Assembly (NCBI GenBank): GCA_938045315.1
Contig: CALINM010000239.1
Location: 1-36,089 of the forward strand
Source: an uncultured bacterium
GTDB lineage: Bacteria > CALINM01
Direction: 5' to 3'
Length of the DNA: 36,089 nt
The notes beneath the pieces were generated by a model, which ran no database searches, had not been told where the DNA came from, and worked only from the letters and a program-made list of their open reading frames with translations. Positions within the stretch are counted from its first letter, which is position 1. Every line of letters begins with the position of its first letter. The position numbers were made by a program, and so were the translations under genes. Positions 4,322-13,735 of this stretch are shown here, piece after piece.

Positions 4322-5305
4322 ATGACACTGGATATAGAATTTTATCAGGGTAAAAGGCACCTTCCAGCCGTTGTCTTTATTCATGGTCTCGGGATGGATA
4401 AAACCCTCTGGACATCTATCTGCGATGCAAGGATTGCTGGAGGGCTTTTACCATTCAGCCTTCTGCTTAAAGAAAGACCTCAGGAGATTAAACTTTCCAG
4501 ACCACCTCTTATCAAACCAGAACCGGTTACTACCGGTAATTCACCACTATATCTGAGTACTTCCTACCATGACCTGAGGGAAGAGGGTTATAGTGTAATT
4601 GCCCGGTTTCAGAGAAGGCCGGTTGGACCTGTAAGTGTTGCTATTGATGAACTCTATCAGGTCATTGAGTTTATCTCATCCCTTACGGATAGAGGTGTTA
4701 TCCTTATAGGGCATAGCAGAGGTGGATTAGTTGCAAGAAGATATGTGGAAATTCATGGTATAAAGAGGATCTGCGGGATTATAACCATTGCAACTCCTCA
4801 CAGGGGTAGCACCATGGCAGAATGGGTCAGATATCTATCAACCGCCACCGCTGCACTTAATCCTTTGCTGAGGTATCTGCCCGAGGGAAAGGCATCAAGG
4901 ACCTTAAAGAGGATCAATGATTTTTTTAAAAGTGAGGCCATAAAGGAATTACTTCCTGAATCCTCTTTTATAAAATCTCCAAGACCTGTAAAAGGAATAA
5001 AATTTTTCTCTGTAGCAGGAACAGATCCTCACCTTTTCAGTCTTTACAGATGGGATACAGGAAAAGTAAATAACGATTTTATCTTAAGAGCGGAAGAAAT
5101 CTTTTCATTCCCTGAATCTCTGATCCCTCTTATCCCTGAAAGGCATATACCTCCTGAGTGGAGGAGTGGTTCTGGAGATGGGCTCGTCAGTCTTGAAAGT
5201 GCAAGGTTTGAAGACTGTGGCGAATTCAGAGTCAGCCATGCTAAGATTTTAATTGACAGCGAGGTCAGGGCTTATATAAGGAGGGTGGTAAGGGATCTAT
5301 CATGA
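4322..5305 (+). CDS. Alpha/beta hydrolase, lipase-like
   Basis: 'VVFIHGLGMDK' oxyanion loop, 'GVILIGHSRGGLVARRYVE' nucleophile elbow, 'ITIATPHRGSTMAEW', late His in 'RVSHAKILID'. ORF track start is 4250; the ATG at 4322 fits domain homology better. Confidence 0.85.
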   Translation: MTLDIEFYQGKRHLPAVVFIHGLGMDKTLWTSICDARIAGGLLPFSLLLKERPQEIKLSRPPLIKPEPVTTGNSPLYLSTSYHDLREEGYSVIARFQRRPVGPVSVAIDELYQVIEFISSLTDRGVILIGHSRGGLVARRYVEIHGIKRICGIITIATPHRGSTMAEWVRYLSTATAALNPLLRYLPEGKASRTLKRINDFFKSEAIKELLPESSFIKSPRPVKGIKFFSVAGTDPHLFSLYRWDTGKVNNDFILRAEEIFSFPESLIPLIPERHIPPEWRSGSGDGLVSLESARFEDCGEFRVSHAKILIDSEVRAYIRRVVRDLS

Positions 5306-5385
5306 ATCTCTCCTTTGCACTGATAATCACAGGTCTTGCTTTAAATATTGTTTTACTTATTCTCTTAATTAAAGGAAGTAGGTAG
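5302..5385 (+). CDS. 27-aa single-TM micro-ORF overlapping the hydrolase stop (ATGA); possibly truncated
   Basis: MNLSFALIITGLALNIVLLILLIKGSR*. Its stop codon lies in the GTAGCCGC repeat. Confidence 0.4.
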   Translation: MNLSFALIITGLALNIVLLILLIKGSR

Positions 5386-5419
5386 CCGCACGCTTCCAGC
5401 CTGCGAATGGTGGAAATAC
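5382..5419 (+). repeat. GTAGCCGC-type dispersed repeat, copy 1
   Basis: GTAGCCGCACGCTTCCAGCCTGCGAATGGTGGAAATAC; a divergent inverted copy lies at 9133-9173. ACAGGCT-GGA-AGCCTGT hairpin follows at 5433-5449. Confidence 0.6.
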
Positions 5420-5478
5420 ATAAAAGCATTAAACAGGCTGGAAGCCTGTTCTACCAGCTTGCAGCTACCAGCTCTTAA

Positions 5479-5570
5479 TAGAGCAGTAGAGCAGCAGAGC
5501 AACAGTTAAATGATAGTAAGAAAAAAACTTCCTCAATAAAAACTGCTGATCTACTGCTCTGCTGCTCTAT
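5479..5570. repeat. Imperfect long inverted repeat, arms 5479-5501 and 5547-5570
   Basis: ATAGAGCAGTAGAGCAGCAGAGCA versus reverse complement of the right arm, ATAGAGCAGCAGAGCAGTAGATCA. Confidence 0.65.
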
Positions 5571-5598
5571 CTGTCGCACTATCGCACTGTCGCACTAC

Positions 5599-5785
5599 GA
5601 ATTTAGAGGGCATAATACCCTTTCAGAGCCAACAATTTCAGTAGGGGCAACCCTTGCGGTTGCCCTTAAAAGGGTAGGGGTAACACTTGCAATTGCCCTC
5701 AAAAGGGGCGGTGTAACCCTTGCGGTTGCCCTCAAAAGGGCAGGGGCAAGCCCTGCCCCTACTTGCACCATATTTTTGAAGAGCC
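5599..5785 (+). repeat. Dispersed repeat copy A: GTAGGGGC...GCCCCTAC element (5641-5762; three 33-bp units plus a 23-bp end unit) with flanks shared with copy B
   Basis: Units GTAGGGGCAACCCTTGCGGTTGCCCTTAAAAGG / GTAGGGGTAACACTTGCAATTGCCCTCAAAAGG / GGCGGTGTAACCCTTGCGGTTGCCCTCAAAAGG / GCAGGGGCAAGCCCTGCCCCTAC. Confidence 0.93.
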
Positions 5786-6005
5786 GAAATAATTTATTCC
5801 CGTGCACTTCGTAGATGAAGGAATTTTACCCTGTTTAATTTTCTTTAAGTTGCGGTTGTTTCTTTCTCTTTATATAAGACTGGAAAGAGGTTGAACCTTT
5901 TACTAAGACCCCATTTGCTTTTTCCCTTTTAAGACCCTGCTAACCAAACATTATTTGGAGAATTTGTTAACTTGACTTTAAAATTTCTCGGGTATATCAT
6001 AAAGT

Positions 6006-7241
6006 ATGCTTATAAAAAGAGAGATATTTCCTGTTCTTCTTGAGCATCTGAGTAGAAAAGAGATAACCCTTATTGTTGGTCCAAGACAGGCTGGAAAGAC
6101 GACTCTTATGAATCTTCTTCAGGAAGAGCTAATCAAGAAAGGTGCAACGACCTTATTTATGAGCCTTGATTTTGAGAGGGATATGCCATTTTTTCGTTCA
6201 CAGCAGACCCTTATTGAAAGATTAAGTCTGGAATTCGGCTCTCAGAAGGGTTTTGTCTTTATAGATGAGATTCAGAGGAAAAGGGATGCTGGTCTGTTTC
6301 TGAAGGGCATTTATGATATGAATCTTCCCTATAAATTTATTATTTCTGGCTCTGGAAGTCTTGAGCTGAAGGAAAAAATTCACGAATCCCTTATTGGAAG
6401 AAAAAGGCTCTTTGAATTAAATACCCTATCCCTGAAGGAATTTATAAATTTTAAAACAGCCTATAAATATGAAGATAGGCTCAAAGAATTCTTCAGGATA
6501 GATCCTCTGGCAAAGGATCTTCTTATGGAGTATATGAATTTTGGTGGCTATCCAAGGGTTGTACTTGAGAATAGGCTTAATCAGAAAATCGCTGTAATTG
6601 ATGATATCTATAGAAGCTATTTAGAAAAAGATATATCATTTCTTCTGAGATTAGAGAAAATGGATGCATTGAAGGATTTAGTTAAACTTCTTGCAGCCCA
6701 GATAGGGGGCCTGGTCAATCTCACAGAACTGTCCTCAACCACAGGCATAAGCATTCCTACTCTGAAGAATTATCTTTATTACCTTGAAAAGACCTTTATC
6801 ATAAAACGGGTTACACCTTTTTACAGAAATATCAGAAAGGAGATAACAAAGTCACCTGTTTTTTATTTCTATGACATGGGACTAAGAAATTTTGCCATTG
6901 GTCAGTTTGGAAGATTGGATACAATCAATATGGGGTTTCTATTTGAAAACCTTATATTCAATCTCCTTAAAGAGAGGTTTCCAGAGGTAGATATCCATTT
7001 CTGGAGAACCACTGATGGTGCAGAGGTGGATTTTATAATAGAATTCCCTGACAGTATTATCCCTGTTGAGGTAAAGTTTAAAGAACTAAAAGAAACAAGG
7101 ATAAGTCGCTCTCTTAAGAGTTTTATCCTTAAATATTCACCTTCTTAGGCATGGATAATAAACCTTTCACTTAAGGAAAAAGAAAGGATTGAAAAGACCC
7201 TTATAAGATTTTTGCCCTTCTGGGAGTTATTAAAGACCTGA
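6006..7241 (+). pseudogene. AAA_14/DUF4143-type ATPase with a single in-frame TAG near the C-terminus (7146-7148)
   Basis: Walker A 'IVGPRQAGKTTLMN', Walker B-like 'FVFIDEIQ', 'IISGSGSLELKEKIHESLIGRK', 'FWRTTDGAEVDFIIE...PVEVKFKE'. After TAG the frame continues AWIINLSLKEKERIEKTLIRFLPFWELLKT* to 7241. Confidence 0.88.
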
Positions 7242-7348
7242 TAATAGTGTCATTACCTTACCTGATTATCTCCCGTGTTTGAGGTATGTTAATAAATCCA
7301 TATTACTTTTATCTTAATCTGCCCAGTTCCCTGCATGTTTTATAAATA

Positions 7349-7678
7349 TCAATCTCTCTTTAACTCCTTCTTCAGAGCTTCAATGGCATCTGCAGTCTTG
7401 TCTGTGGCATAGAGTTTTGCTGATAGCTCTTCTCCTAATAAATCATAACCCACATTGATATACAGGGCTTGATAGATATATTCACCTACCTTAACCAGAT
7501 TGTTGAGTTTTATTAATCTTTCACATGAATTTTGAGTCTTGATTATTTTTGCAAAAAGGTCACTAATATCCAGTCAAGCATCCAGGAACTTTCTTGACAG
7601 ATAAACATCATTTTTTACCTGTTCTGTTAGGGTCTTAGCCTGGTCAAGTTCTCTTGTATATCTGTCAAGTGATAGAAA
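7349..7678 (-). pseudogene. Remnant of a helical protein gene with one in-frame TGA; 5' end cut off by the IS relic
   Basis: Minus-strand SLDRYTRELDQAKTLTEQVKNDVYLSRKFLDA*LDISDLFAKIIKTQNSCERLIKLNNLVKVGEYIYQALYINVGYDLLGEELSAKLYATDKTADAIEALKKELKRD*; abuts the IS end at 7679. Confidence 0.6.
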
Positions 7679-8105
7679 GAGGGTGTTTCAAAATTAACCT
7701 AAAGACTTTTATAACCTAACCAGGTATAAGGAAAAACAAAAATTTAACTAAGGCAAGTAAGCCAGCCATATTCCACAAGATAAACATGCCCAGCACCATA
7801 AGCTTTGCCATATGCTACCTCTTAAGACCCAAATAACTCCCATATTCACCTTTTACACTACCAAAAACCTGCTCTATACAATATCTACCCTTTAATACCC
7901 TCTCCTTCGTAGTAGGGGCGCGGCATGCTGTGCCCCTACACCTCTGATTAGCCCTCTAACTAACCCCAAACCTAACCTTCAGCTTCACTGTATTCCTTGA
8001 ACAAACTATAAGCTCATATCCCATACTCTCCATCTCCTCAAATACTTTAACCTTATTATAGTCCTGATGTCTTTGCCCAAAGCTAAACAACTCTTTATTA
8101 AGTTA
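7679..8105 (-). mobile_element. Relic (3' part) of a DDE-transposase insertion sequence, same family as 12072-12981
   Basis: Minus strand aligns by eye to 12610-12981 ('KGRYCIEQVFGSVKGEYGSYLGLKR', 'MAKLMVLGMFILWNMAGLL'). Terminal GAGGGTGTTTCAAAATTAACC matches the other copy's IR. Confidence 0.85.
7912..7939. repeat. GTAGGGGC palindromic element, 28-bp solo copy D, inside the IS relic
   Basis: GTAGGGGCGCGGCATGCTGTGCCCCTAC, absent at the equivalent place in the second IS copy. Confidence 0.88.
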
Positions 8106-8256
8106 CATGCGAAGTGAATTAGTGAGTTAGTTAAAGCATTTGCCAATTAATTTGCTCCTCTTTAAGCCTGCTGTTATCTACTGGTGCGGACATTTAGTCT
8201 CAGGATAAGTTATTTGTTACCTCATGCACTCTGTTATCCGCCGATGTAGACTGAAA

Positions 8257-8487
8257 TCATTTTAAAGGTTCCTTGAATTTCTCTATCGTTAAATCAGCAT
8301 CTCTGAGAATTTTTACCAAAGTTTTGGGATGAAGGATTTTTCCTAAATGATAAGGAACTGTTGCCTTCTTGCCTTCTTTGTTCTTATATATCTTGTGGCT
8401 TCTACCTTGTCATGAAAAGAAAAATCCACCCTTTTCCAATACTTTGATTTGATCAGCCGCAGTTACCCTTGGTAGTTTTTCACCCAT
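8257..8487 (-). pseudogene. hicA: HicA-type toxin with in-frame TGA at codon 26
   Basis: MGEKLPRVTAADQIKVLEKGGFFFS*QGRSHKIYKNKEGKKATVPYHLGKILHPKTLVKILRDADLTIEKFKEPLK*; HicA G-SH-K-Y and VP-H motifs. Confidence 0.87.
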
Positions 8488-8708
8488 ACTGCTACGTCCA
8501 TCAAGGTAAGACTTACTGATTCCGCCTGAGGAATTTCTTCACCGCTTTCAATTCTGTCTTCTACATTAAGGCCAATACCATGTTTGATATTTTTCAAAAC
8601 TTCTTCATAAGTATCACCCTGAGCATAGCAGCCCTGAAGTTCAGGGGAAAGGGCAAAATAGCCTTCACTGTCTTTTTCAACAACTACTGAGAACTTATAT
8701 GCACTCAT
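8463..8708 (-). CDS. hicB: HicB-type antitoxin
   Basis: 'FSVVVEKDSEGYFALSPELQGCYAQGDTYEEVLKNIKHGIGLNVED' HicB-fold N-terminus; overlaps hicA start; RBS-like ggaggc upstream. Confidence 0.88.
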   Translation of the reverse strand: MSAYKFSVVVEKDSEGYFALSPELQGCYAQGDTYEEVLKNIKHGIGLNVEDRIESGEEIPQAESVSLTLMDVAVWVKNYQG

Positions 8709-9132
8709 TTTTTTTTGCCTCCTCTTCCTGCTATCCTTATTTTTATTTCTTTTTTGGAATTGGATGATGCCACCCCTTTGTAACGTGACAGACTATTGCA
8801 CTTGGTTGCCTGAGGAGTGATAGTAAAACAACCCATACACATTTTCTTCCAAATTTGTAAGAAAGAGAGGGGCGTATTATTGCGTCCATTAGCATTATAA
8901 TCCAGTGACAGAGAAAAAAGACCTACACGGACAAATATATCAACTCAGGTAATCCCAAACATGCCTGAACAACTCCCTATTTTTATTGACCATCACTACC
9001 CCATAATTGATATTCTCCTCGGAGGGGGACTGAAAGTTGGATAGTTTACTTATAGCTTAAATCCATCCAATTGTCATGAACATCTGAGAGCTTGCAATCC
9101 CCCAGTTTTCTATCTTTAGCTAGTAGTTTTTT

Positions 9133-9173
9133 GTATTTCTACCATTTATCTCAGGATTCCTGCCTGCGGCTAC
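9133..9173 (-). repeat. GTAGCCGC-type dispersed repeat, copy 2 (divergent)
   Basis: Minus strand GTAGCCGCAGGCAGGAATCCTGAGATAAATGGTAGAAATAC versus 5382-5419. Confidence 0.5.
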
Positions 9174-9267
9174 CTCACTTCCTTTACATAAAACCCTTGA
9201 AATCCTAAAAGCTTTATGAGATAATTTAACTGTTGCATCTGTCTGGGTTACCATCCTTTTCTGGCGA

Positions 9268-9424
9268 GAATTTAGAGGGATAATACCCTTTCAGAGCCAA
9301 CAATTTCAGTAGGGACAACCCTTGCGGTTGCCCTTAAAAGGGTAGGGGTAACACTTGCAATTGCCCTCAAAAGGGCAGGGACAAGCCCTGCCCCTACGTG
9401 CTTGCACCATACTACTGAAGAGCC
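9268..9424 (+). repeat. Dispersed repeat copy B: GTAGGGAC...GCCCCTAC element (9309-9397; two 33-bp units plus a 23-bp end unit)
   Basis: Near-identical to 5599-5785, including flanks gaatttagaggg...caatttca and ttgcaccata...gaagagcc, but lacks one 33-bp unit. Confidence 0.93.
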
Positions 9425-9470
9425 TTATTTTTATTAAAATAAATAAAAACATCTACAAGGAGGTTGAGCC

Positions 9471-10604
9471 ATGAGAGGATTTAAGTTTTTCTAGTTTTTG
9501 GTTGTGCTTTTGATGGTTTTAGGAGTTTTAGTATCAGGAACTTTTGCCCAGAAAAAGGGTAAGCAGGAGAAACCAGAAGAAACAGAGGTTGAAACAGTTA
9601 ATATTGTTGAGGCATTGGAAAAGGGTTTAATAGAGGCTGAGGCAAGGGGTGCTGGATTGGAGGCTGTAAATGTTGTGGTAAAGCGAAAGTTGGAAAAACC
9701 ATTAAAGGTGTTTGTTCCGGTAGGAACCTTTTTTGTAAATCCTGGAAAGGCTCAAAATATGGTAGCAACAAAAGATATAGTTATTGACCTTACACAGAGG
9801 AAAGAAGCCTCTTATAGTGTTCCTTCAGCCTCTGCTAATGTAGACAGGGATGTTCCAGGCAGTGACTCTAAATTTAGAATTGTTGTTGCCCCTGAATCTG
9901 AAGAACTTAGAAAACTTATGGAAGTAATTGCAAGGGAAAAGCCTTCAACTAAAGTAAAGCAGGTGGCTGTATGGATAGTAACGGATGATATTACAGGAGG
10001 AAAGCTTGACTCAAGGTATGTGAGTCGTCCTGCTTTTCTGCCTTTTGGTGGTTCACCAGCTGCCTCTGATGAAGATGTAGTAAGGGCAATATCACTTGTT
10101 GAAAGGGCAGGTATAGATGTTACACAAAAAGCAATTGTTAAAGAGAGGGTATCTGCGCTAAAAGGATTAGTATCTGAAGATAAAAAGGCTGGAGACTACT
10201 CAGCAAAGCTCCTTGGTTATCAGAAAGAGAAAGATATAAACAGCTTTAGGTTAGAGACATTAATCTCTGCACTGAAGGATGGAGAATGGGCTGTCCTCAG
10301 GGCAGCAGCAGAGGCACTTAAAAAAATCACAGGTAGAGATTTTGGCGAAAATTACGATAAATGGAACAACTGGTGGCAGGAAATAAGGGAAGGTTTAAAT
10401 AAAATTAGGAGGGATTGTAAAATGGCGAGATGGAATTTTTATTTGAGGATAGCAGCATTTCTTCAGATACACAGTTTATTAAATTTCTGTAGCAATAAAT
10501 CAGAATATCCTGATAGTTCAGAACCACCTACCATTGGTGATGGTAAACCTCAGAATTTTAAAATCGTAGGGGCTGCCCCTGCTGCTGCCCAAAATGCAGT
10601 TTAA
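9471..10604 (+). pseudogene. Secreted protein of unknown function, HEAT-like C-terminal segment; TAG at codon 8 and an apparent in-frame fusion to a second short gene start
   Basis: RBS aaggagg then ATG 9471: MRGFKFF*FLVVLLMVLGVLVSGTFAQKKGKQ... Track ORF starts at TTG 9498. A second RBS (AGGAGG) plus ATG lies in frame at 10422. Confidence 0.65.
10566..10582. repeat. GTAGGGGC-type element fragment E at the 3' end of the upstream ORF
   Basis: GTAGGGGCTGCCCCTGC; encodes the terminal VGAAPAAAQNAV-like tail of the ORF. Confidence 0.55.
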
Positions 10605-10730
10605 AATCCTTTGGGCAAGACTGTGCTGAGCCCCTTCAAATTTTTGGGCGATTTGGGAATTGCCTTTATTGGTTTAATATCTCTTTAAAAACTTTAAAAA
10701 CGACTCAGCTTTTCAAAAAGGGGGTTTATT

Positions 10731-11168
10731 ATGCAGGCAAAAAGGTTTAGAAGTGGGATGCTCTGGAACGATGAATTTACTGGAAACTTGGCCATCTTTT
10801 GCAGTGATGAAAGGTTTGTCAACGCAACTTTGGAGTTCCTGAAGCGTCAACTTGGCATTGATAGTTGTGATTTGATGGTTGTTGCTGGCGGTCCGGCTTT
10901 TATCCCTAATATCGAAATTGCTTTGATGGATAGACTTGACCTACTTCTTGAAGCCCACAAAGTCAAACAAGTCATCTTCATCGCTCACGATGATTGTGGT
11001 TATTACAAACACCTTCACAAAGGTTTGCCGCCTCAAACTCTCAAAGAAAAACAGCGTGAGGATCTTCTATCAGCCCTGATAAAGCTTCAATCAAAGAGCA
11101 TCAAAGTGAGAGCCTTCTTTGCGTTCGTTGATAGCGGAGAAGTCATCTTTGAAGAGGTTAAATTATAA
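10731..11168 (+). CDS. Compact beta-carbonic-anhydrase-like zinc protein (145 aa)
   Basis: C-x-D-x-R ('FCSDERF') and H-x-x-C-G ('IAHDDCGYY') zinc/active-site pattern of beta-carbonic anhydrases, plus 'VVAGGPAFIP'. RBS-like ggggg upstream. Confidence 0.65.
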   Translation: MQAKRFRSGMLWNDEFTGNLAIFCSDERFVNATLEFLKRQLGIDSCDLMVVAGGPAFIPNIEIALMDRLDLLLEAHKVKQVIFIAHDDCGYYKHLHKGLPPQTLKEKQREDLLSALIKLQSKSIKVRAFFAFVDSGEVIFEEVKL

Positions 11169-11272
11169 TACACCAGAAGCTTTGGTAGGTAAAAAGGTTT
11201 AGTATTTGGGTCAAAACATTCGCTCATGGAACCAAGCTATTGCGTCAACTTTTGGGACTTAGAGGACAAGCT

Positions 11273-11410
11273 GTAGGGGCAGGGCTCGCCCCTTGCTCCA
11301 ACAGATGAAACTTTTGTGGCAATTCATGAATTACCCTGCGGATTTTAAACTTCTGGGCACGGCGTGCCGTGCCCTTACAGGAAATGGGCAGGGGCAAGCT
11401 CAGCCCCTAC
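11273..11410. repeat. GTAGGGGC...GCCCCTAC element C (138 bp, internally different from A/B)
   Basis: Starts GTAGGGGCAGGGCTCGCCCCT, contains the perfect stem GGGCACGGC-GT-GCCGTGCCC (11355-11374), ends GGGCAGGGGCAAGCTCAGCCCCTAC. Confidence 0.8.
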
Positions 11411-11420
11411 TTGCTCTATG

Positions 11421-12027
11421 GCTGGATATTTCTCTTCTACTGTAAAATATGCATAAAAATTTTCATTTCTTAGCCTTATCTCCACTGTGTATGCTTCACA
11501 AGAAAAGACTAAGGCTTATATTTGATTTTCTCTGTCTCCTGCTGATATTCTTGCATGTATGTATTGCCTTTCTCCTATGTTTATACGCAAGTATAAGCCG
11601 TTTTCCCTTATCTCTATTCTTAAGTTTTGATTACCCTTTGAATGCTTTTGTACTATGCTATAAAGATTGCCTGTTCTTTTATCATACCACTGGATTTTTA
11701 ATTCTTCATACTTCTTGCCATTTATATGTCTTTTTCTTAGCTTTTCAAATAGAGCACTTCATCCAAAGATTACCTTCTTAGTGCTCATGTTTAACTCCTT
11801 TAGACTTTTCATTAAAGATTGTGCTTTGACTATGGCTGAATGGGAATATATTGCGTTAAGATTAAAGTTTGCTTAAAGGGTTTTTCTTAGGGTATTTAAG
11901 TTCATTTTTTCAAGTAATCTCTGGTAGGCGTATCTATAAGCTGAAGACCATCGTCTTGTGAGGTCTTTTAAGATTTCTATATCTTTTTGGTTATCAAAGA
12001 GAAGATTACCATGTATGGTTTTCATTT
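11421..12027 (-). pseudogene. tnpB: TnpB (IS200/IS605-type OrfB) relic, N-terminal part only, several stops
   Basis: Minus-strand MKTIHGNLLFDNQKDIEILKDLTRRWSSAYRYAYQRLLEKMNLNTLRKTL*ANFNLN...KKVIFG*SALFEKLRKRHINGKKYEELKIQWYDKRTGNLYSIVQKHSKGNQNLRIEIRENGLYLRINIG...NENFYAYFTVEEKYP; no RuvC-like C-terminus before element C. Confidence 0.72.
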
Positions 12028-12071
12028 GTTAGTATGTGTGCTCTGAATATATCTTTTGTCAAGTATTTTAA

Positions 12072-12981
12072 GAGGCTGTTCCAAAAATCCCGAAAGTATG
12101 AGAAACTAATATTCTATGTGGTGCAGAAGTTTAACAACACTTAAACCAAAAGAAATCTATAGCCTTATCAAACAATTCTACAAAGAACACCCACCAGAAA
12201 AACAAAAAAAGAGGAAGACCAAGAAAATACCCAGAAGAACTAATACTGTTACTGCTACTGCTAAAAATCACACTAAACGCAAGCTACAGAAAACTACTAT
12301 CCATAGCCCAAGAACTTTATCCAGATGAACAACTACCATCACTAAGAGGAGAAAGGAGAGGAGCCATATGCTATGGTAGATGGAACAGGCATGGGATACA
12401 ATACACCCTTTTATCTCAGGGATAAACGAGGTCTAGGGATAAGGAAGATTAGCTCGCATGTGAAGATAATTGCCTTGTGTTATTGGCAAGGAGGTAGGAA
12501 CTGGGTGGTTGATGTAGAGATAGGAAAGGCTTATAGCGATGAAGGGAAGCTATGCATGGAGTTATTGGAAAAGAGAAAGGAGGGATTACTTCCTTATGGC
12601 ACTAATATAGTGGGTGATAAGTTGTATGGTATGAGGGTAATGTATTAAAAGAGATGGAAAGTCTTGGATATAAGCCTATAGTTTGTTCAGAGGATACGAC
12701 GAGAGTGAAGGTTAAATCAAAGGAAAGGAAGAGGGCTGATCAGAGGGCTAAGGAGAAGGAAGAGATATTGAAGGGTAGGTATCGGATAGAGCAAGTATTT
12801 GGTAGTATAAAGAAGGCATATGGGAGTTACTTGTATGTTAAGAGGGAGCATATGGCAAAGCTTATGGTGTTGGGTATGTTTATCTTATGGAATATGGCTG
12901 GTTTGCTTAGCTTGGTTAAATTTTTGTTTTCTTTTACCTGGTAATATTTTGGAGTTATTAGGCTATTTTTAAAACATCCTC
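12072..12981 (+). mobile_element. IS4/IS5-like DDE insertion sequence, internally deleted and frameshifted
   Basis: Terminal IRs GAGGCTGTTCCAAAAATCCCG (12072-12092) and reverse complement GAGGATGTTTTAAAAATAGCC (12961-12981). Frames give RGRPRKYPEELILLLLLLKITLNASYRKLLSIAQELYPDEQLPSL, VDGTGMGYNTPFYLRDKRG, GDKLYG, YRIEQVFGSIKKAYGS. Confidence 0.88.
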
Positions 12982-12990
12982 ACTTTTCCA

Positions 12991-13019
12991 TTGTAGTATT
13001 TAAGCCAAAATTATATAAT
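12991..13019 (+). promoter_or_regulatory. Putative phoU promoter
   Basis: Weak -35 TTGTAG, 17-bp spacer, perfect -10 TATAAT, 29 bp before the phoU ATG. Confidence 0.45.
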
Positions 13020-13048
13020 TTACTAAATCAAAAAAATTTGGAGTGTAT

Positions 13049-13735
13049 ATGATTGAAGGGCACATTTATAAATCCTTTGATAAGGAACTTAAAGAGTTAA
13101 AAGAAAAGCTTCTTTATGAAGGTTCTCTTGTGGAGAGGGCTATTAGAGATGCTATTAAGGCATTGCTTGAAAGAGATTCATCTTTAGCAGAAAAGGTTAT
13201 AAGTGATGATGATGTGGTGAATGCAAAAGAAGTAGAAATTGATGAGTTTTGTCTTAAGTTACTTGCTTTAAGACAACCTGCTGCAAGAGATTTAAGATTT
13301 ATAACTACAGCTATCAAAATTAATTATGATTTAGAAAGAATTGGTGATATGGCGGTTAATGTATGTGAAAGGGTTCTGGAATTGAATCAAGAACCTCAGT
13401 TAAAACCTTATATAGACCTTCCTAAAATGGCTGAAACAGTCCAATTAATGGTTAAGGAGAGTTTAGATGCTTTTGTTAAAGAAGATGTGGAATTAGCGTG
13501 GAAGGTAACACGTGATGACGAAATAGTAGATCATCTTCATGATCAAATTTTTCGAGAACTGTTAACATATATGATGCAAGATTTCAAGGCGGTATCGAGA
13601 GCTACAAGACTGCTTTTTATTTCGAAATACCTTGAAAGAATTGCAGACCATGCTGTGAATATTGCAGAACTAGTTATTTTCATGGTAGAAGGAAAAATTG
13701 TAAGACACTTAAAGACACCTGAAGAGAATAAATAG
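13049..13735 (+). CDS. phoU: Phosphate transport system regulator PhoU
   Basis: 'LRQPAARDLRFITTAIKINYDLERIGDMAVNVCERVLEL' and 'LLFISKYLERIADHAVNIAELVIFMVEG' PhoU repeats. ATG at 13049 preferred over the 13043 track start because of the upstream ggag. Confidence 0.93.
   Translation: MIEGHIYKSFDKELKELKEKLLYEGSLVERAIRDAIKALLERDSSLAEKVISDDDVVNAKEVEIDEFCLKLLALRQPAARDLRFITTAIKINYDLERIGDMAVNVCERVLELNQEPQLKPYIDLPKMAETVQLMVKESLDAFVKEDVELAWKVTRDDEIVDHLHDQIFRELLTYMMQDFKAVSRATRLLFISKYLERIADHAVNIAELVIFMVEGKIVRHLKTPEENK

Follow-up and report, generated by a model that had tools for sequence, protein, structure and literature searches.

Palindrome inside a decayed transposase gene

The window (the whole stretch of DNA analysed, 36,089 nucleotides) contains two copies of one insertion sequence (IS). 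The first, at 7679-8105 on the minus strand, is a relic of the 3' half of the IS with an IS5-like DDE transposase gene and further internal stops, and the second, at 12072-12981 on the plus strand, is frameshifted, matches DDE_Tnp_1 (PF01609) and has weak IS5-family matches. The ends of the second copy, GAGGCTGTTCCAAAAATCCC (12072) and GGCTATTTTTAAAACATCCTC (12961-12981), resemble imperfect terminal inverted repeats by eye. A preliminary description of the locus had placed a palindrome inside the first relic, and our analysis confirmed it at 7912-7939. As written in that description the 28-base palindrome is GTAGGGGCACAGCATGCCGCGCCCCTAC, the reverse complement of the plus strand, which reads GTAGGGGCGCGGCATGCTGTGCCCCTAC.

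The palindrome consists of a GTAG foot, a GGGC/GCCC stem, the core GCGGCATGCTGT with two G.T mismatches in the stem, and a CTAC foot. It fits the pattern GTAGGGGC-N12-GCCCCTAC with 0 mismatches, where 0.03 matches are expected by chance in the window even if three mismatches are allowed, and it is the sole occurrence of an exact TAGGGGC-N0-25-GCCCCTA in the whole 1.86-Mb assembly. The hairpin is predicted to fold as single-stranded DNA with -8.8 kcal/mol. Rfam gave no match across 5200-13100 of the window. A MITE or other non-autonomous derivative of a DDE IS was considered and rejected, as GTAGGGGC is by inspection unlike the IS ends (GAGG.TGTT...) and no duplication is definable. We identify the palindrome as a double-foot REP (GTAG...CTAC) of about 28-30 nt, non-autonomous and putatively handled as a single-stranded DNA hairpin by a cognate enzyme.

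To compare the two copies, the reverse complement of 7679-8056 was aligned to 12631-12981. The alignment showed 73% identity with the palindrome in the 7.9-kb copy only, and BLAST with the joined flanks of the palindrome crossed the junction in the 12.6-kb copy at 77%; the empty site lies at about 12747-12752. The copies had been described as close to a filled and an empty site, and it holds that only one of them has the palindrome, but they are paralogous and not orthologous, strongly diverged and both decayed. The minus-strand reading of the element, (T)GTAGGGGCACAGCATGCCGCGCCCCTAC(T), encodes the peptide CRGTACRAPT. In the transposase frame the filled copy reads RANQR CRGTACRAPT T KER VLKGRYCIEQVFGSV (later residues LKGR) and the empty copy RADQR AKEKEEILKGRYRIEQVFGSI (in summary form RADQR-AKEKEEILKGR), with the codons AGG / TGT AGG GGC ACA GCA TGC CGC GCC CCT ACT / ACG AAG GAG ... 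AGG GTA and AGG / GCT AAG GAG AAG GAA GAG ATA, respectively. The net length difference is +24 nt in the filled copy. This is most simply explained by 30 nt gained in frame (the element and two bases) and, separately, 6 nt lost from the adjacent GA-rich GAGAAGGAAGAG tract. What was earlier taken for the replacement of a few bases is better read as an effect of alignment; given the divergence, some four bases may have been lost at the junction, but the data do not require it. As the copies are only 73-77% identical the exact junctions cannot be fixed, and no target duplication is definable.

Relics of the same IS family are also present on contigs C103 and C9 of the assembly. The two further relics on C103 are without the segment around the insertion site, so the genome holds one informative empty copy. 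Unfilled sites had also been hoped for in related genomes; neither the same-genus nor the same-family genomes yielded the IS, and hence no unfilled orthologous site was found there. No IS relatives were found in viral contigs, and an all-against-all comparison of the fetched loci for further empty sites returned RAYT paralogues and repeats only. Another genome, G012, has 17 distant IS relatives, approximately 40% identical over 88 residues and with frames mostly open over 320 aa. The GTAGGGGC...GCCCCTAC palindrome is absent from the loci of all 17; its natural presence in intact copies is what the preliminary description had named as decisive against insertion. Because these loci are without it, insertion into the IS gene is a better polarity than ancestral presence. 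This is supported in three ways: by the 12.6-kb paralogue without the element, by the palindrome-free relatives in G012, and by the occurrence of the same 28-mer type with sharp edges in unrelated flanks of many phyla. The reverse order of events, with a palindrome present in the IS from the start and lost from the 12.6-kb copy by precise excision, has in our view a very small probability. IS200/IS605-type HUH transposases excise precisely, which together with the single informative empty copy in the genome would fit such a loss, but an ancestral palindrome is at odds with its absence from the 17 loci and with the very many unrelated contexts in which the element type occurs.

REPs at 5.6-11.4 kb and the search for a helper

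A canonical GTAG-footed REP cluster at 5641-5762 has a period of ~33 nt, an inverted last unit and the outer ends GTAGGGGC...GCCCCTAC. A second cluster, at 9309-9397, is 92% identical to it over 115 nt of flank and first units; these near-duplicates (5600-5770 and 9270-9400) have ~40 nt of flank in common. Further along the contig there are a GTAG-footed REP on the plus strand with a decayed 3' end (11273-11293, GTAGGGGCAGGGCTCGCCCCT), a decayed double-foot copy (11355-11379, GGGCACGGCGTGCCGTGCCC followed by TTAC) and an inverted GTAG-footed REP on the minus strand (11386-11410, GTAGGGGCTGAGCTTGCCCCTGCCC). The decayed double-foot copy has the 20-base core with 1 mismatch, with 0 expected by chance, and a z of -4.15 for its single-stranded DNA fold. 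The canonical REP pattern gave 8 matches in the window, as compared to 0.01 expected. At 10566-10590, GTAGGGGCTGCCCCTGCTGCTGCCC at the 3' end of a HEAT-repeat ORF may be an in-frame REP remnant (VGAAPAAA), or chance.

In the 1.86-Mb assembly, intact GTAG-footed REPs (GTAGGGGC..GCCC) were found at 7 distinct sites, all at 5641-11410 of this contig, and double-foot copies amount to the intact one at 7912-7939 and the decayed one at 11355-11379. Among the relatives, the same-genus genome G001 has none of these sites and G002 has one weak match. No Y1/RAYT gene was found in the assembly, which is a 244-contig draft and 92% complete, or in the two relatives (G000, G001 and G002; Pfam Y1_Tnp and protein searches). 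What is seen here is not an active REP/RAYT system (REPtron), as no tnpA_REP gene was found and the copies are neither numerous nor spread along the chromosome, the intact GTAG-REPs lying within one ~6-kb stretch. This confinement, as well as the presence of just two double-foot copies, one of them decayed, speaks against active transposition within the genome. That the element is or was mobile, as first proposed, is shown for the family rather than for the present genome.

The lack of a RAYT, the 7 REP sites on one contig and their absence from the same-genus genome argue for an element deposited by a helper that is not now present, perhaps in a donor, with the island imported or surviving as a block. 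Since the intact REPs lie in one ~6-kb island of an assembly without RAYT, the insertion may have happened in the donor. The restriction of the REPs to 5641-11410 in the whole assembly makes an imported island possible: the REP would have inserted in a REP-rich donor, the 5.3-12 kb stretch would then have been acquired as a block, and nothing would have moved in the lineage. This is a variant of our best explanation with regard to place and time, not to the identity of the element, and we give it only slightly less than an even chance; arrival together with a REP-rich island is no less probable than movement within the lineage. Apart from the RAYT-free genome and the location of all 7 sites, with none in G001 and one weak match in G002, it agrees with a stretch that is partly richer in G+C than its flanks and full of relic sequence. 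On the other hand, the IS is otherwise known only from the present genome (relics on C103 and C9) and thus looks resident, no plasmid matching the REP island was found, and REP clusters can simply be local. The same restriction to one stretch, in a window that is one contig of a 244-contig draft, could result from an assembly or binning artefact in which a REP-bearing stretch from another organism was joined to the contig, but with relics of the same IS family on other contigs of the assembly we consider this very unlikely.

Double-foot REPs and RAYT genes in other genomes

Using an exact core-specific pattern, we found the core type of the 7912-7939 element in 118 or more stretches, which lie in GTDB contigs of ~20 phyla. 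These include Gemmatimonadota, Chloroflexota, Cyanobacteria, Nitrospirota, Omnitrophota, Bacteroidota, Planctomycetota, Acidobacteriota, Deltaproteobacteria-labelled MAGs, Myxococcota, Peribacteria, a Euryarchaeota-labelled MAG and others. Copies of the family have sharp GTAG/CTAC borders and unrelated flanks, with a mild preference for T before and A after. Among the matches listed, 118 of 126 cores are perfect palindromes, as compared to 38% if half-cores were independent (our own arithmetic from half-core counts). A relaxed palindrome pattern was present in 86 of 290 genomes with up to 159 copies, and a reversed control pattern gave 0-4 matches in the richest genomes. In 2.9 million viral contigs the core type was found in 11 stretches, and in plasmids ACGGCATGCCGT was found in one Nostoc megaplasmid only and GCAGCATGCTGC in none.

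Several copies lie within genes. At L196:4267, in a Planctomycetota MAG, a palindrome is in frame in tsaD, and by comparison with solved TsaD structures the protein has 9 inserted residues there (VGARHAVPL region); at a distance of 1.2 kb there is a RAYT whose palindrome has another core. At L119:2567 a palindrome is in frame in rsmG, and the protein is just 2 residues longer there than solved homologues, as if an existing loop had been replaced. In-frame palindromes were also found in CheA-like and kinase genes, and at L173 the palindrome is nested in the middle of a larger inverted repeat (gcggcattgcgct/.../agcgcaatgccgc) into which it was inserted. For seven palindromes of genome G203, flanks were sought in other species of the genus; no clean empty site was found, and the gaps at the orthologous positions are occupied by different palindromes or by inverted repeats of other kinds. 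At one orthologous intergenic site of one genus (L297, L302, L304 and L305) the palindromes have different cores by species, which is turnover in place, by covariation or replacement. Conserved terminators might be kept in this way, and the 7912-7939 hairpin does form, so we considered a transcription terminator or RNA hairpin that is not mobile and arose in place by mutation or slippage. This is hardly credible for an element inside a coding relic, where a 30-nt in-frame gain fits a pan-phylum consensus at both feet and core, and whose family is dispersed with sharp borders.

To look for a link to RAYT genes, we used a consensus-like RAYT-like HUH protein query composed from loci in hand, with a small bias from one included linker peptide. 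Matches were found in 94 of 290 genomes and the palindrome in 86, with both in 55 (odds ratio 7.5, p=3e-13, the latter indicative only as the genomes are not independent by descent). The link was further seen within the genes: 22 of 45 RAYT-like genes, chosen by protein similarity and not by palindrome, have a near-perfect palindrome at most 40 codons after the HUH motif, as compared to a single one in 20,118 bases from other parts of these ORFs, which served as control. In G050, which has 71 copies, nearly all among the matches listed have the core GGTTCGCGAACC, the core of the copy inside its own RAYT gene. In G140 five RAYT regions were examined, and none of them contained the commonest cores among the matches listed. 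RAYTs with the core type of the window occur in Nitrosomonas halophila Nm1 (L171:1221-1808; GRGTACRAPT), two Chlorobiaceae MAGs and Desulfuromonas (VGAQHAAPL), and window-type cores are carried in frame by the subclass 2.4-like tnpA_REP genes at L171, L108, L166 and L134, where they lie between the HuH and Y motifs. The RAYT-like carriers match one family only, NCBIfam NF047646, mostly split in two stretches and with 58.6-69.9 bits, below the curated cut-off of 80; with Pfam Y1_Tnp they score just above or just below its cut-off. In G049, a 5-Mb single contig with 24 copies, many of GAAAAATTTTTC type, the group 4-like RAYT query has no match among the matches listed, and ten other Y1_Tnp matches are present.

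Origin of the insertion and relation to known systems

We conclude with high confidence that the best explanation of the 7912-7939 element is a double-foot REP inserted in frame, with a RAYT-type helper that is now absent. The REP entered the IS5-like DDE transposase gene at a lysine-rich part that precedes (lies upstream of) the conserved (R)YRIEQVFG segment, and would have been moved there as a single-stranded hairpin by an HUH/Y1 transposase of the RAYT group 4 / TnpA_REP subclass 2.4 type. The in-frame insertion would add 30 nt (peptide CRGTACRAPT), and the DDE transposase is the target only. Either the helper has been lost since, or the insertion was made in a donor rich in REPs and came in as part of the REP island. 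Our results show what type of element this is, the polarity of the insertion, the dispersal of the family and its link to RAYT genes in other genomes; a RAYT as the mover, and the place and time of insertion, are what we infer.

What began as an oddity seen by eye is now a documented pair of filled and empty copies for a double-foot REP family, in a lineage without the transposase. For the window itself the interest is modest, and the pattern across phyla is the more interesting of the two. Group 4 RAYTs are putative movers of such palindromes, and the wider pattern makes this directly testable, since in G050 the gene-borne palindrome equals the copies dispersed there, identical cores occur in ~20 phyla, and palindromes lie in frame in TsaD, RsmG, CheA-like and kinase genes. 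Possibly, though we propose this tentatively and give it less than an even chance, one double-foot type (cores GCAGCATGCTGC and ACGGCATGCCGT) and the group 4 RAYTs carrying it have crossed between phyla many times and deposited in-frame peptides (VGARHAVPL, VGAQHAAPL, CRGTACRAPT) in conserved genes, and the window holds a dead-end deposit imported without the helper.

Rickettsia palindromic elements (RPE) and Nostoc small dispersed repeats (SDR) are tiny palindromes that insert in frame or nest in other repeats. They resemble the 7912-7939 element in size and insertion habit. The R. conorii RPE was tagged CGTC, not GTAG, by Di Nocera et al. (PMC3733652). The GTAG-tagged REPs of the same survey (Di Nocera et al. 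2013) have in common with our element a GTAG foot and a small palindrome, occur as dimers and clusters, and are reported within genes; however, their tag is unpaired at one end, whereas that of the 7912-7939 element pairs with CTAC at the opposite end, and the 5.6- and 9.3-kb clusters fit them better. In the E. coli TnpA_REP/REP system (PMC8266576) the substrates of an HuH/Y1 enzyme are single-stranded palindromes with a conserved motif in front of them, and by analogy the same may hold here, but E. coli REPs are bulged, imperfect palindromes, unlike the double-foot REP. Among the papers listed by a letter search of the literature, none was found that mentions the string GTAGGGGC as a repeat; double-foot REPs themselves are described (PMC6006769). 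Quentin et al. (2018, PMC6006769) assign to subclass 2.4, equal to RAYT group 4, double-foot REPs, in-frame REPs in tnpA_REP between HuH and Y, and the motifs NH[IFV]H / WQ / YIxNNP. Our element agrees with these REPs in its GTAG and CTAC feet on one palindrome, in the GGG/CCC stem base and in the many phyla of its family, which in other genomes has in-frame copies inside a transposase gene with the motifs NHxH, WQ and YIxNNP. It differs in its very low copy number and in its position in a DDE transposase relic of a RAYT-free genome. As subclass 2.4 was described in this way by Quentin et al., the double-foot REP kind is known, and what is new is a stranded copy in a genome without its helper.
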